Source of the DNA: Archangium primigenium
GTDB taxonomy: Bacteria; Myxococcota; Myxococcia; Myxococcales; Myxococcaceae
Length of the DNA: 64,000 nt
Direction: 5' to 3'
Assembly: GCF_016904885.1 (NCBI RefSeq)
Contig: NZ_JADWYI010000001.1
Span: forward strand, 8,427,224 to 8,491,223
The notes under the pieces were generated by a model that saw only the letters and a list, made by a program, of their open reading frames with translations, made no database searches and was not told the origin of the DNA. Both the position numbers and the translations under genes were made by a program. This document shows positions 31,683 through 35,933 of this stretch, one piece after another. Every line of letters starts with the position of its first letter. Position 1 is the first letter of the stretch.

Positions 31683-33440
31683 TCAGCCCTCCACCGGCTC
31701 GCAGCGCACGGACACCTCCAGGCGCTCGCGGCCACCGCCCAGGTAGATGGTGCCCGCGGTGGGCGTGGTGTCCGTGTACTGACGGCCCACCGCCACCCGC
31801 ACGTGGTCCGTCTGGGTGAGGATGCCGTTGGTGGGATCGAAGCCCTTCCAGCCCACCTCGGGCAGATACACCTGGACCCAGGCGTGCGAGGCCTCGGCCT
31901 GCGCCTGGTTGGCGTGCTTGGGGCCCGTGTAGATGTAGCCGCAGGTGTAGCGCGCGGGCACGCCCAAGAGGCGCGCCAGGCAGATGAAGACGTTGGCGAA
32001 GTCCTGACACACGCCCTGGCGCTCCGAATACACGTCGAAGGGCGTGGTGCTCAGCGTGGTGGAGCCCTGGACGTAGCGGTACTCCTTGTAGATGCTGAAG
32101 TTCATGTCCAGCAGCGTGTCGAGCAGGTCGAAGTCGTTGCGGCGCGCGAAGCTCATCGCGTACTCGACCAGCTCGTCCAACTGGGTGTCCGGCAGCTCCG
32201 GCGGCAGCAGGTAGGGCTGGAGCATGTTGCGCTGCCAGGGCATCCACACGAGCGGCAGCGTGGAGCGCTCGCGCAGCGGGCGGTAGCCGAGCGGATCCGT
32301 GTCCCGCAGCTCCACGCGCGAGCGGCCCTCGATGACGAGCTCCGTGTAGGGCGACTCCACGAGCACCTTGCGCACGCGGTTGCCGAAGACGTCCTCGTAG
32401 TCGGCCCGCGTGACGCCCGAGGACATGCTCACCTCGTGGGACAGCAGGGACTGGAGCCGGTCGTGGAACGGGGTGAGCCGCAGCTTGTGCGCGCTGCGCT
32501 CCACGGGCTGGTCGTAGCGGTAGACGGTGCGGTGGACCACGTCCATGACGCGCACCGGGGCCACCGGCGGACGGCGCAGGCGCTTGCGGGCCTCGAACTC
32601 GGTGACGGCGGAGGACGGGGGCGCGCCCGCCTCCTGGCTCCAGGAGGGCAGCACCTCGGCGCGCAAGGCGCCCTGGCGGATGAGCAGCAGCGCGCCCGGG
32701 GAGATCTGCTTCCAGTGGGCGGGCACCTCGGTGCGCGAGGTCAGGGGATCCGTGCTGACGATGAAGCCCTTGCGGCTCTTGGCGCCGCGCTTGGTGAGGT
32801 CCAGCTCCAGGTCCTCGTCGCCGAGGATGAGCCGCTCATAGGGCGGCGCGAGCTGCCACAGCCAGCACCTGGTGGCGCCGGTGCGGTCCGCGTAGACGCA
32901 CAGGTCCTGCCCGTCCGAGATGACGAGCGTGATGGGCCCCAGGCCATTCATCTCCTCGAGCCAGCCGCGCAGCTGCGCCGGATCCGCGTCCCCGAGGCTG
33001 TGCCAGCCCTGCTCGCGCATCCAGTCGAGCAGCCGGCAGAACAGGGCCTCCGAGTCGGTGGAGCCCACGGGCTCGAAGGTGGCGCCCGGCGGAATGGGCA
33101 GACGCTGCTCGAGGCTGCCGCTGTGCGCGAGCAGCCAGTCGCGACCCCACGCGCTGCGACAGAAGGGCTGGGTGTTGGCCTCGGTGATGGGCCCCCAGGT
33201 GGCGGTCCGCAGGTGCAGCAGGAAGATGGAGGACTCCAGCGGATCCCACGTCCTCACCAGCTCGCTGCGGGTGCTGCCCGGGTGGGGGCCGGCCTCCTTG
33301 AGCAGCGCGGCGGCGAACTCGCCCCCCGGGTAGTAGCCCACGCCCCAGCCATCGGGCGGCTTGCGGCCCGGGGACAGGCAGCGCAGGTCGAGGCTGGGGG
33401 CGAGCTCTCCTTCGAAGGACAGCGCGAGCAGGTTGAGCAT
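31683..33440 (-). CDS. Class II glutamine amidotransferase-like domain fused to transglutaminase-like protease
   Basis: 585 residues. Residues 1-265 are a class II (Ntn) amidotransferase fold (PDGWGVGYYPGGE, HLRTATWGPITEANTQPF, LLAHSGSLEQ, STDSEALFC), but residue 2 is Leu where family members have the catalytic Cys. Residues about 300-585 are a bacterial transglutaminase N domain plus transglutaminase-like domain with an intact triad: Cys478 (RQGVCQDF), His519 (SHAWVQVY) and Asp535 (GFDPTNG). It is the last gene of a three-gene operon with ATP-grasp and alpha-E proteins. In published comparative genomics this set is proposed to make and cleave peptide or amide bonds. Confidence 0.88.
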   Translation of the reverse strand: MLNLLALSFEGELAPSLDLRCLSPGRKPPDGWGVGYYPGGEFAAALLKEAGPHPGSTRSELVRTWDPLESSIFLLHLRTATWGPITEANTQPFCRSAWGRDWLLAHSGSLEQRLPIPPGATFEPVGSTDSEALFCRLLDWMREQGWHSLGDADPAQLRGWLEEMNGLGPITLVISDGQDLCVYADRTGATRCWLWQLAPPYERLILGDEDLELDLTKRGAKSRKGFIVSTDPLTSRTEVPAHWKQISPGALLLIRQGALRAEVLPSWSQEAGAPPSSAVTEFEARKRLRRPPVAPVRVMDVVHRTVYRYDQPVERSAHKLRLTPFHDRLQSLLSHEVSMSSGVTRADYEDVFGNRVRKVLVESPYTELVIEGRSRVELRDTDPLGYRPLRERSTLPLVWMPWQRNMLQPYLLPPELPDTQLDELVEYAMSFARRNDFDLLDTLLDMNFSIYKEYRYVQGSTTLSTTPFDVYSERQGVCQDFANVFICLARLLGVPARYTCGYIYTGPKHANQAQAEASHAWVQVYLPEVGWKGFDPTNGILTQTDHVRVAVGRQYTDTTPTAGTIYLGGGRERLEVSVRCEPVEG

Positions 33441-33453
33441 GTGGCCCGCGAAT

Positions 33454-34455
33454 CTACCCAGCCATCACCTGCGTTCCCAGTGCGACGGGGGCCTCGGGGG
33501 GCTTGCGGCCGAAATACTCCTCGGAGATGAGGGCGCACAGGTCCGCCGTCCCCTCCACCATCCGGGTGAGCAGGGCATGCACCGTGGCATCCGGGCTCGC
33601 GAGCGCCTGCGGGCGCAGCTCGGCGAGCAGGGGCAGGGACAGGGCCAGCGTCCGCCTGCCTGGCAGCTGGGGCTCGGCGTCCGGCGGGCACAGGCGCACC
33701 AGGTAGCGGTACGCCGAGTCGAGGCAGTAGTGGACCGAGCGGGGAAAGCGCGACTCGAACAGGAGGAAGGACGCCACGGCGTCCCCCGTCACCCGGCCCG
33801 AGTGGGTCTTCATGAAGGGCTCGAAGCCGGAGCAGGCACGCAGGAGGGACAGCCACAGCGCCGTCTCCACCACCGGGTGGCCCGGACGCATGCCGGAGAA
33901 GACGTGGTGGTGCACGTCCAAGAGGCGCGCCGTCTGGCCCACGCGCTCGAGCATCACCCCGAGCCAGATGAAGTCCAGGGGCGTGTCGTGGAGCATGGTG
34001 CTGCGAAACAGGCCCAGGCACAGCTGCACCATGCGGCGGATGTGCTGGAAGAAGCCGTAGCGCGAGTGCTCGAACTCCTCGCGGCCCGCGTCGCCCAGGA
34101 GCCACAGGTACAGCTCGTTGGTGACTTCCCAGCACTCCTTGCTCACCACCTCGCGGATGGTGCGCGCGGCCTCGCGGGCCGCCGAGAGGGTGTTGAACAG
34201 GCTGGAGGTGTTCGACTCCTCCCACGTCATGAAGCGCTGCACGTCCTCGGCGTCCGCCTCGCGCTCCGCGCCATACCGCGCGGTGAAGGCGGGGTGCTCG
34301 CCGAAGACGACCACCACGGGCGTCCACAACTGCTCGGCGCCCAGCTCCGCGTCCAGCGCGAGCTGCCCCGTCATCTGCAACACCCGGGCGGTGCTCTCCG
34401 CGCGCTCCAGGTAGCGGCCCAACCAGAAACAGTTCTCCGCGATGCGCGCGATCAT
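33454..34455 (-). CDS. Alpha-E domain protein
   Basis: A 333-residue, all-helical protein. MIARIAENCFWLGRYLERAE is the diagnostic start of the alpha-E family, with repeated R/E pairs and LERVGQTARLLDVHHHVF in the middle. Its biochemical role is unknown; it always travels with circularly permuted ATP-grasp and transglutaminase-like genes and is thought to be a helper or enzyme of the same amide chemistry. ATG 34455 overlaps the upstream stop (ATGA) with AAGGAGG before it. The longer ORF to 34989 is only read-through inside the ATP-grasp gene. The fusion gene starts 13 bp downstream. Confidence 0.93.
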   Translation of the reverse strand: MIARIAENCFWLGRYLERAESTARVLQMTGQLALDAELGAEQLWTPVVVVFGEHPAFTARYGAEREADAEDVQRFMTWEESNTSSLFNTLSAAREAARTIREVVSKECWEVTNELYLWLLGDAGREEFEHSRYGFFQHIRRMVQLCLGLFRSTMLHDTPLDFIWLGVMLERVGQTARLLDVHHHVFSGMRPGHPVVETALWLSLLRACSGFEPFMKTHSGRVTGDAVASFLLFESRFPRSVHYCLDSAYRYLVRLCPPDAEPQLPGRRTLALSLPLLAELRPQALASPDATVHALLTRMVEGTADLCALISEEYFGRKPPEAPVALGTQVMAG

Positions 34456-35933
34456 ACGGCCTCCTTCTGCACCCAGGTGTCCTTGGAGCCGCCGCCCTGG
34501 CTGGAGTTGACGACGTAGGAGCCCGCGCGCAGGGCCACGCGGCTCAGGCCTCCGGGCAGGACCCAGGGCCCCTGGGGCCCGGTGAGGATGTACGGCCGCA
34601 GGTCCACGCGACGCGGCACCACCTTGCGCGTGGCCGCGTCCCACGTGGGACAGGTGGACAGCTCCACGCGCGGCTGGGCGATGTAGCGCCGCGGGTGGGC
34701 GAGGATGCGCTGGCGGAAGTCCTCGCGCTCCTCGGCGGTGGACTGGGGACCCATCAACATGCCGTAGCCCCCCGCCTCGTCCACCGTCTTCACCACCAGC
34801 TCGTTCAGGTGCTCGAGCACGTAGCGCCTGTCCTCCTCGCGGGCGCACACGTAGGTGGGCACCTGCTCGAGGATGGGCTGCTCGCCCAGGTAGAAGCGGA
34901 TGAAGTCCGGCACGAAGGCGTACGTGGCCTTGTCGTCCGCCACGCCGTTGCCCGGCGCGTTGGCCAGGGTGACGTTGCCCGCGGCCCACGCGCGCAAGAG
35001 CCCCCGCACGCCCAGCATGCTGTCCGGACGGAAGGCCTCCGGGTCCAGGAAGGCATCGTCGATGCGCCGGTAGATGACGTGCACGCGGCGCGGCCCGCGC
35101 GTGGTGCGCAGGAAGACGCGGTCGTCGTCCACGAACAGGTCCTCGCCATGCACGAGCGGCACGCCCATGGTGCGCGCGAGGAAGCTGTGCTCGAAGTAGG
35201 CGGAGTTGTACGGCCCGGGCGTGAGGATGACGACGGTGGAGTGCTCCGGATCCTCGGGCGACACGGCGCGCAGCGTCTCGGCGAGCCGCGCCGGGTAGTG
35301 GTCCACGCGGCGCACGCGCGCCATCTCCAGCACGTCGGGCACCACGCGCTTGGAGAGGATGCGGCCCTCCATCACGTAGGACACCCCCGAGGGCGTGCGC
35401 AGGTTGTCCTCCAGCACCTGGTAGGTGCCGCGCCCGTCGCGGATGAGGTCGATGCCCGCGATGTGGATGCGCACCCGGCCCGCGGGCCGCACGCCCCTCA
35501 GCCGCGGCAGATAGAGCGGCGTGTTGAGGATGAGCTCGCGCAACTCCGGCCGCTCGGCGAACAGCCGCTGCGGGCCGTACACGTCATCCAGGAAGAGGCC
35601 CAGCGCGCGGATGCGCTGCTCCAGGCCCCGCTCCATGTGCGCCCAGTCCGACGCCGACACGAGCCGCGGTATGAGGCAGAAGGGGAAGATGCGCTCGGTG
35701 CCCCGCTGGTCCGAGTACACGGAGAACGTCACGCCCTGGTTGAGCAGGGCCCGCTCCGCCAGGGCCTGCATGCGCGCGAAGTCCTCCGGCGGGCGCGCGC
35801 CCAACACGGCCAACAGCTTCTGGAAGTCCTGTCGGGCGACGCCATCGGGGCCCATCAGCTCGTCGATGCTGCCCGGCATGAGGCCGTAACCGGCGAACAG
35901 ACCCGGGTCGTGCGGAAGCGGTGGTTGTCTCAT
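34452..35933 (-). CDS. Circularly permuted ATP-grasp protein
   Basis: A 493-residue predicted carboxylate-amine ligase. Family motifs: GLMPGSIDELMGPDG, VYSDQRGTERIFPF, IAGIDLIRDGRGTYQVLEDN, LRTPSGVSYVMEGR, PGPYNSAYFEHSFLAR, NAPGNGVADDKATYAFVPD and SSQGGGSKDTWV at the end. It is expected to form an amide or peptide bond at ATP expense; the substrate is unknown. First gene of the operon with alpha-E (4-base overlap) and GATase-transglutaminase. Upstream 35934-36120 is shared with the divergent lipoprotein gene. Confidence 0.92.
   Translation of the reverse strand: MRQPPLPHDPGLFAGYGLMPGSIDELMGPDGVARQDFQKLLAVLGARPPEDFARMQALAERALLNQGVTFSVYSDQRGTERIFPFCLIPRLVSASDWAHMERGLEQRIRALGLFLDDVYGPQRLFAERPELRELILNTPLYLPRLRGVRPAGRVRIHIAGIDLIRDGRGTYQVLEDNLRTPSGVSYVMEGRILSKRVVPDVLEMARVRRVDHYPARLAETLRAVSPEDPEHSTVVILTPGPYNSAYFEHSFLARTMGVPLVHGEDLFVDDDRVFLRTTRGPRRVHVIYRRIDDAFLDPEAFRPDSMLGVRGLLRAWAAGNVTLANAPGNGVADDKATYAFVPDFIRFYLGEQPILEQVPTYVCAREEDRRYVLEHLNELVVKTVDEAGGYGMLMGPQSTAEEREDFRQRILAHPRRYIAQPRVELSTCPTWDAATRKVVPRRVDLRPYILTGPQGPWVLPGGLSRVALRAGSYVVNSSQGGGSKDTWVQKEAV

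Follow-up and report, generated by a model that had tools for sequence, protein, structure and literature searches.

Class II amidotransferase domains that no longer catalyze are known, and so are operons that combine ATP-grasp, alpha-E and transglutaminase genes. Beta-lactam synthetase and carbapenam synthetase keep a dead amidotransferase domain, partnered with a synthetase domain. Two other described proteins have the class II fold and are close to the protein analyzed here: the YafJ-type class II amidotransferase (GATase_4; structure 1te5) and EgtC, the gamma-glutamyl amidohydrolase of ergothioneine biosynthesis.

When an ATP-grasp gene, an alpha-E gene and a transglutaminase gene occur with a gene for Anbu, the four-gene set is called the Anbu operon, and its function is given as unconfirmed in two papers (PMC6376114, PMC5666114). 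In a wider set of papers the substrates and function of alpha-E/ATP-grasp/transglutaminase operons are likewise unproven (PMC12239564, PMC6376114, PMC12096838, PMC5666114, PMC10318531).

We found that the transglutaminase gene of such an operon in Archangium primigenium is fused to a class II amidotransferase domain. The window, the whole stretch of 64,000 nucleotides that was analyzed, contains the ATP-grasp, alpha-E and transglutaminase members of the Anbu-operon set, all on one strand, with the fusion gene third (Table 1). The fusion protein shares its fold and the pocket Arg, Gly and Asp with the YafJ-type enzyme; in contrast to that enzyme, it lacks Cys2 and the oxyanion Asn and is joined to a transglutaminase-like domain. 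It shares the fold of EgtC, but it lacks Cys2 and has other gene neighbors. The NCBIfam EgtC model matches it weakly, and membership in EgtC was rejected (TIGR03442 equivalog, 29.8 bits against a cut-off of 218.65). Beta-lactam and carbapenam synthetases likewise keep the fold without catalysis, but here the partner is a transglutaminase. Compared with Anbu operons, and with the loci of Paracoccus and Deinococcus, the gene order is the same, but the locus in the window has no Anbu and its transglutaminase bears an extra Ntn-fold pseudo-enzyme domain. Literature searches that combined class II glutamine amidotransferase with transglutaminase, or glutamine amidotransferase with transglutaminase and myxobacteria, matched nothing. 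No fusion of the two domains was found described in titles and abstract openings; an earlier description may exist.

Table 1. Features of the fusion gene and its operon in the window
Feature	Position	Strand	Basis
Fusion gene, 585 aa, pseudo class II amidotransferase and transglutaminase-like domain	31683..33440	(-)	ORF, Pfam, homologues
GATase_4 domain, residues 1-263; Leu2 and Ser107 replace catalytic Cys and oxyanion Asn; Arg78, Gly108, Asp129 retained	32652..33440	(-)	Pfam, alignment columns, 1te5 match
Bact_transglu_N and Transglut_core, about residues 300-585; triad Cys478-His519-Asp535	31686..32543	(-)	Pfam, alignment columns, 3isr match
Alpha-E protein, 333 aa; ATG overlaps ATP-grasp stop (ATGA); 13 nt before fusion gene	33454..34455	(-)	PF04168, 3e-76
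Circularly permuted ATP-grasp ligase, 493 aa, first gene of likely operon	34452..35933	(-)	PF14403, 1.2e-157

The fusion protein begins with MLNLLALSFEGEL, and the first codons of its gene are ATG CTC AAC (Met-Leu-Asn). The reading frame opens just 8 codons before this ATG (WLGRFAGH, after a stop), and none of these 8 in-frame codons is ATG, GTG or TTG, which bears out the original prediction that the start has no upstream in-frame alternative. The sole near-start upstream is a CTG, and a start there would not place a Cys at position 2 either. A sequencing error or a missed start was rejected: the frame has no upstream start, and no close relative with Met-Cys was found. Pfam matched GATase_4 to residues 1-263 (E = 1.4e-66; 224.7 bits against a cut-off of 23), Bact_transglu_N to residues 300-377 and Transglut_core to residues 450-536.

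We compared position 2 across the fusion family. The 147 genomes of the class were searched, with matches in 33, and a scan of genome contigs yielded 72 loci. Together these gave 81 loci with full-length fusions, 67 of them distinct. The transglutaminase triad (C478/H519/D535) was predicted to be kept, and it is intact in all 67, the window's included. Position 2 in these proteins is Pro (46), Leu (14), Thr (5), Ser (1) or Ala (1), and never Cys. We widened the sampling to the phylum (195 genomes), an acidobacterial group (396 genomes) and a planctomycete group (392 genomes). Rows were defined as distinct cores with an amidotransferase score of at least 150 and a transglutaminase match in the same open frame; the cores of L156, L162, L167 and L169 were added by name, and the unfused transglutaminases L161 and L168 were left out of the fusion counts. 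This set held 82 distinct amidotransferase domains, with position 2 readable in 81 (the contig of L082 ends within the domain). Pro leads with 51 rows, followed by Leu (14), Thr (9), Ser (6) and Ala (1); Cys is absent (0). Cys2 and Asn107 are both present, on the other hand, in each of the 9 stand-alone canonical GATase_4 relatives used for comparison.

The fusion with the conserved loss of Cys spans Myxococcota, Acidobacteriota and Planctomycetota. Because Cys2 occurs in 0 of 81 fusions and in 9 of 9 stand-alone relatives, the loss is, as far as the aligned sequences tell, old and family-wide, and not a local loss or an error. The missing catalytic cysteine of the original prediction thus holds for the whole family. 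That prediction had named homologues with Cys2 as the sign of a sequencing error or a local loss; no such fusion was found among the 81, and a conserved non-catalytic domain is therefore supported. What is conserved is the lack of Cys and not Leu2 itself, since Pro2 is commoner. Leu2 is the state of a sub-clade, inside a clade with mostly Pro2, that holds the window's genome, its close relatives and Corallococcus; the Met-Leu-Asn start is kept in 14 distinct rows. On plasmids, none of 322 matching records covered 80% of the fusion query.

We built a tree from 65 amidotransferase domains (57 fusions and 8 canonical) with a quick method, using SH-aLRT as the only support. The fusions stand apart from the canonical rows (99) and form clade A (45 rows; 99), with the window's protein inside, and clade B (12 rows; 98), found in Planctomycetota and some Myxococcota. 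The finer branching is unsure, given several open inner branches and the length of L083 and L074. For the column counts, the identity of residue 2 decided whether a row went to clade A or B, and the 57 fusion rows in the tree fall into these same two groups. Residues F9, P15, W102, D179 and R255 are near-invariant and specific to the fusions.

All 65 clade A rows have Pro or Leu at position 2 (Pro2 in 51). None has Asn at position 107, which is Ser (45), Ala (18) or Gly (2), and Asn171 is mostly lost. In the window's protein the oxyanion-hole Asn-Gly is replaced by Ser107-Gly108, a loss absent from the original prediction. Arg78, Gly108, Asp129 and Glu131 are each present in 65 of 65 rows. In the alignment to 1te5, Arg78, Ser107 and Asp129 pair with its Arg, Asn and Asp. 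From work on GlmS and PurF, we take Arg78 and Asp129 to bind the carboxylate and amine of glutamine and position 107 to belong to the oxyanion hole. The 16 rows of clade B have Thr (9), Ser (6) or Ala (1) at position 2, and Asn107 in 13. They largely keep Arg78 (14/16), Gly108 (16/16), Asp129 (15/16) and Glu131 (16/16). Because Asp30, Gly83 and Asn89 are lost in clade B (each 0/16), the pocket, judged by its residues, is not uniform across the fusion family.

Outside the fusion family, the window's genome encodes a second GATase_4 protein without Cys2 (L147:1360-2193; contig C1, near 3984739). Its N-terminus reads MPVALAVLT, and His-Ala-Gly replaces His-Asn-Gly, apparently a separate case of the double loss of Cys and oxyanion residue. 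A third GATase_4 copy in this genome (L146) is canonical, with MCRLFGF and HNG.

To assess selection, we calculated dN/dS (NG86) for 11 pairs of close relatives; values were 0.07-0.30 for the amidotransferase domain and 0.09-0.20 for the transglutaminase domain. By this measure the amidotransferase domain is under purifying selection; the low dN/dS says only that the domain matters. An AlphaFold2 model of the fusion (41 sequences) had a mean pLDDT of 79.1 and a pTM of 0.79. VIA-align matched this model to 1te5 (Z 29.3, rmsd 2.2, 243 aligned, residues 2-262, 28% identity). Other matches were to the transglutaminase-like structure 3isr (Z 20.4, rmsd 3.0, 254 aligned), to EgtC (4zfj, 4zfk and 4zfl; Z 19.7, rmsd about 3, 204-207 aligned) and to a C1A mutant of GlmS (Z 19.4, rmsd 3.1, 214 aligned). 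Beta-lactam synthetase and carbapenam synthetase matched at Z 10-12 (rmsd 3.4-4.0, 167-183 aligned). By their titles, entry 4zfl is EgtC_C2A with its natural substrate and 3ooj is C1A GlmS with glutamate. Because these Cys-to-Ala entries are titled with a bound ligand, they suggest that the class II fold can hold a ligand without its Cys.

On sequence grounds, loss of catalysis by the Cys mechanism is established for the window's clade: clade A has no N-terminal Cys, Ser or Thr and the oxyanion Asn is replaced, and the Arg and Asp, the fold and the fusion are retained. Because the loss of Cys is common to relatives in several phyla, the dead domain is probably kept to hold or recognize something rather than to cut it. 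From these features we infer its ligand and its partner. The reading we favor, at roughly even odds, is a pseudo-glutaminase retained as a module that recognizes glutamine or gamma-glutamyl groups for the fused transglutaminase-like amidase. In an ancestor, a YafJ/EgtC-like class II amidotransferase domain would have become fused to the transglutaminase-like enzyme that an ATP-grasp/alpha-E operon encodes. Clade A would then have lost the catalytic Cys together with the Asn of the oxyanion hole and retained the pocket in which glutamine, or a gamma-glutamyl group, is held by its amino and carboxylate groups. The domain might bind a free or terminal glutamine or gamma-glutamyl unit and present it to the fused cysteine amidase, or use it to gate that enzyme. 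The ATP-grasp/alpha-E pair, in turn, might make a peptide or gamma-glutamyl tag, which the amidase would edit or remove.

The original prediction had proposed a recognition module for the ligase encoded by the neighboring ATP-grasp gene. Recognition gains indirect support on two counts: the binding Arg and Asp survive where the nucleophile and oxyanion residues do not, and Cys-to-Ala entries are titled with ligand. The tie to the ligase is one of gene context only; the covalent link of the domain is to the transglutaminase. If the domain is a recognition module, its retained pocket suggests that the operon handles glutamine or gamma-glutamyl groups. Alpha-E/ATP-grasp/transglutaminase operons are widespread, and the pocket makes the group that they handle testable. 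The amidotransferase domain has also been retained long after catalysis was lost, in a family whose sister clade may have changed its nucleophile. We rejected a supply of ammonia by the amidotransferase domain to the ATP-grasp ligase in clade A, where nucleophile and oxyanion residues are both lost.

The main rival to a recognition module is a domain that is only a structural or docking part, such as a dimer interface or one for a partner like alpha-E or ATP-grasp, and that binds no ligand. The Arg, Asp and Gly would then hold the fold, and the kept pocket residues could indeed serve folding. The joint loss of nucleophile and oxyanion residues fits this idea, the fusion-specific residues (F9 to R255) could mark a new interface, and the two synthetases keep a dead domain of the same fold. 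However, the changes fall at catalytic positions (Cys2, Asn107 and, mostly, Asn171), and Arg78, Asp129 and Glu131 are invariant in clade A; we consider a purely structural role rather unlikely. A sequencing error, a wrong start or a recent local loss in the window's genome has a negligible probability, and the 14 distinct Met-Leu-Asn rows together with the absence of Cys2 from every fusion in effect refute it.

The domain might instead still be an enzyme with another nucleophile, either the N-terminal amine of Pro, which most of clade A has, or the Ser or Thr found in 15 of the 16 clade B rows. Asn107 accompanies Ser or Thr in 13 of these 15, and a start codon stands directly before the Ser or Thr in 10. 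However, the other five (L074, L076, L078, L079 and L135) have their nearest start further upstream and none at position 1, so that Ser or Thr would be N-terminal only after processing. The window's own group has Leu2, which offers no nucleophile, plus Ser107, and Leu at position 2 blocks removal of Met. We regard this reading as very unlikely. We also find it quite unlikely, if a shade less so, that two routes followed the loss of Cys. Clade B would have exchanged its nucleophile for an N-terminal Ser or Thr and kept the oxyanion Asn, giving a hydrolase of amidotransferase fold, and clade A would have become a non-catalytic gamma-glutamyl reader; in both clades the domain may serve as the Ntn-fold partner of a tagging operon that has ATP-grasp and alpha-E but no Anbu. 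L076, L078, L079, L084 and L135 share a conserved coding stretch, 'EHQ', that leads up to the Ser/Thr position; four of them (L076, L078, L079 and L135) have no start there and would require an N-terminal extension or propeptide.

We searched for Anbu itself. None was found in the window's genome, where the sole proteasome-family match directly precedes an HslU-like open reading frame and was taken as HslV. A Paracoccus Anbu query found no Anbu in the 147 genomes of the class; as a positive control, it matched Mesorhizobium at 48% identity. That the fused domain replaces Anbu is a guess, and the absence of Anbu is weak evidence for it because genomes without the fusion lack Anbu too. In Paracoccus the ATP-grasp, alpha-E and transglutaminase genes are followed by a proteasome-family 'peptidase'; Deinococcus shows this order of the three genes too, and its transglutaminase (about 288 aa) is unfused.

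The fusion usually lies with both partners. ATP-grasp and alpha-E genes are both present at 43 of 53 fusion loci on genome contigs, and the end of alpha-E lies within 300 nt of the fusion in 25 of the 53. The other 10 lack one or both partners in the flanking DNA covered, which is at least 4.7 kb on each side for 5 of them. At four planctomycete loci (L166, L170, L171 and L172) a glutaminase-like gene lies just downstream of the fusion; the L170 copy (L170:3772-5643), the one tested with Pfam, matched PF04960 at 7.7e-222. Several fusion loci carry a gene for a long transglutaminase-family protein, which at L136 is a transglutaminase-DUF2126 amidoligase. These neighbors fit glutamine or glutamate chemistry. 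No DUF2126 amidoligase was found in the window's genome, though relatives carry one near the fusion.

Some loci depart from the usual arrangement. At L136 (L136:3290-8524), L137 and L138, in genomes G083, G076 and G082, a second copy of the fusion lies beside the long transglutaminase-family protein, with no ATP-grasp or alpha-E match within the stretch covered. At L098:5797-6110, in Corallococcus interemptor, the first 90 or so residues of ATP-grasp run into the last part of the transglutaminase, which looks like loss of the operon by one internal deletion. In a planctomycete a transglutaminase of this family is unfused (L168:5193-6266; 357 aa, 51% identity): it lacks the amidotransferase domain, and its gene adjoins one for glycogen debranching.
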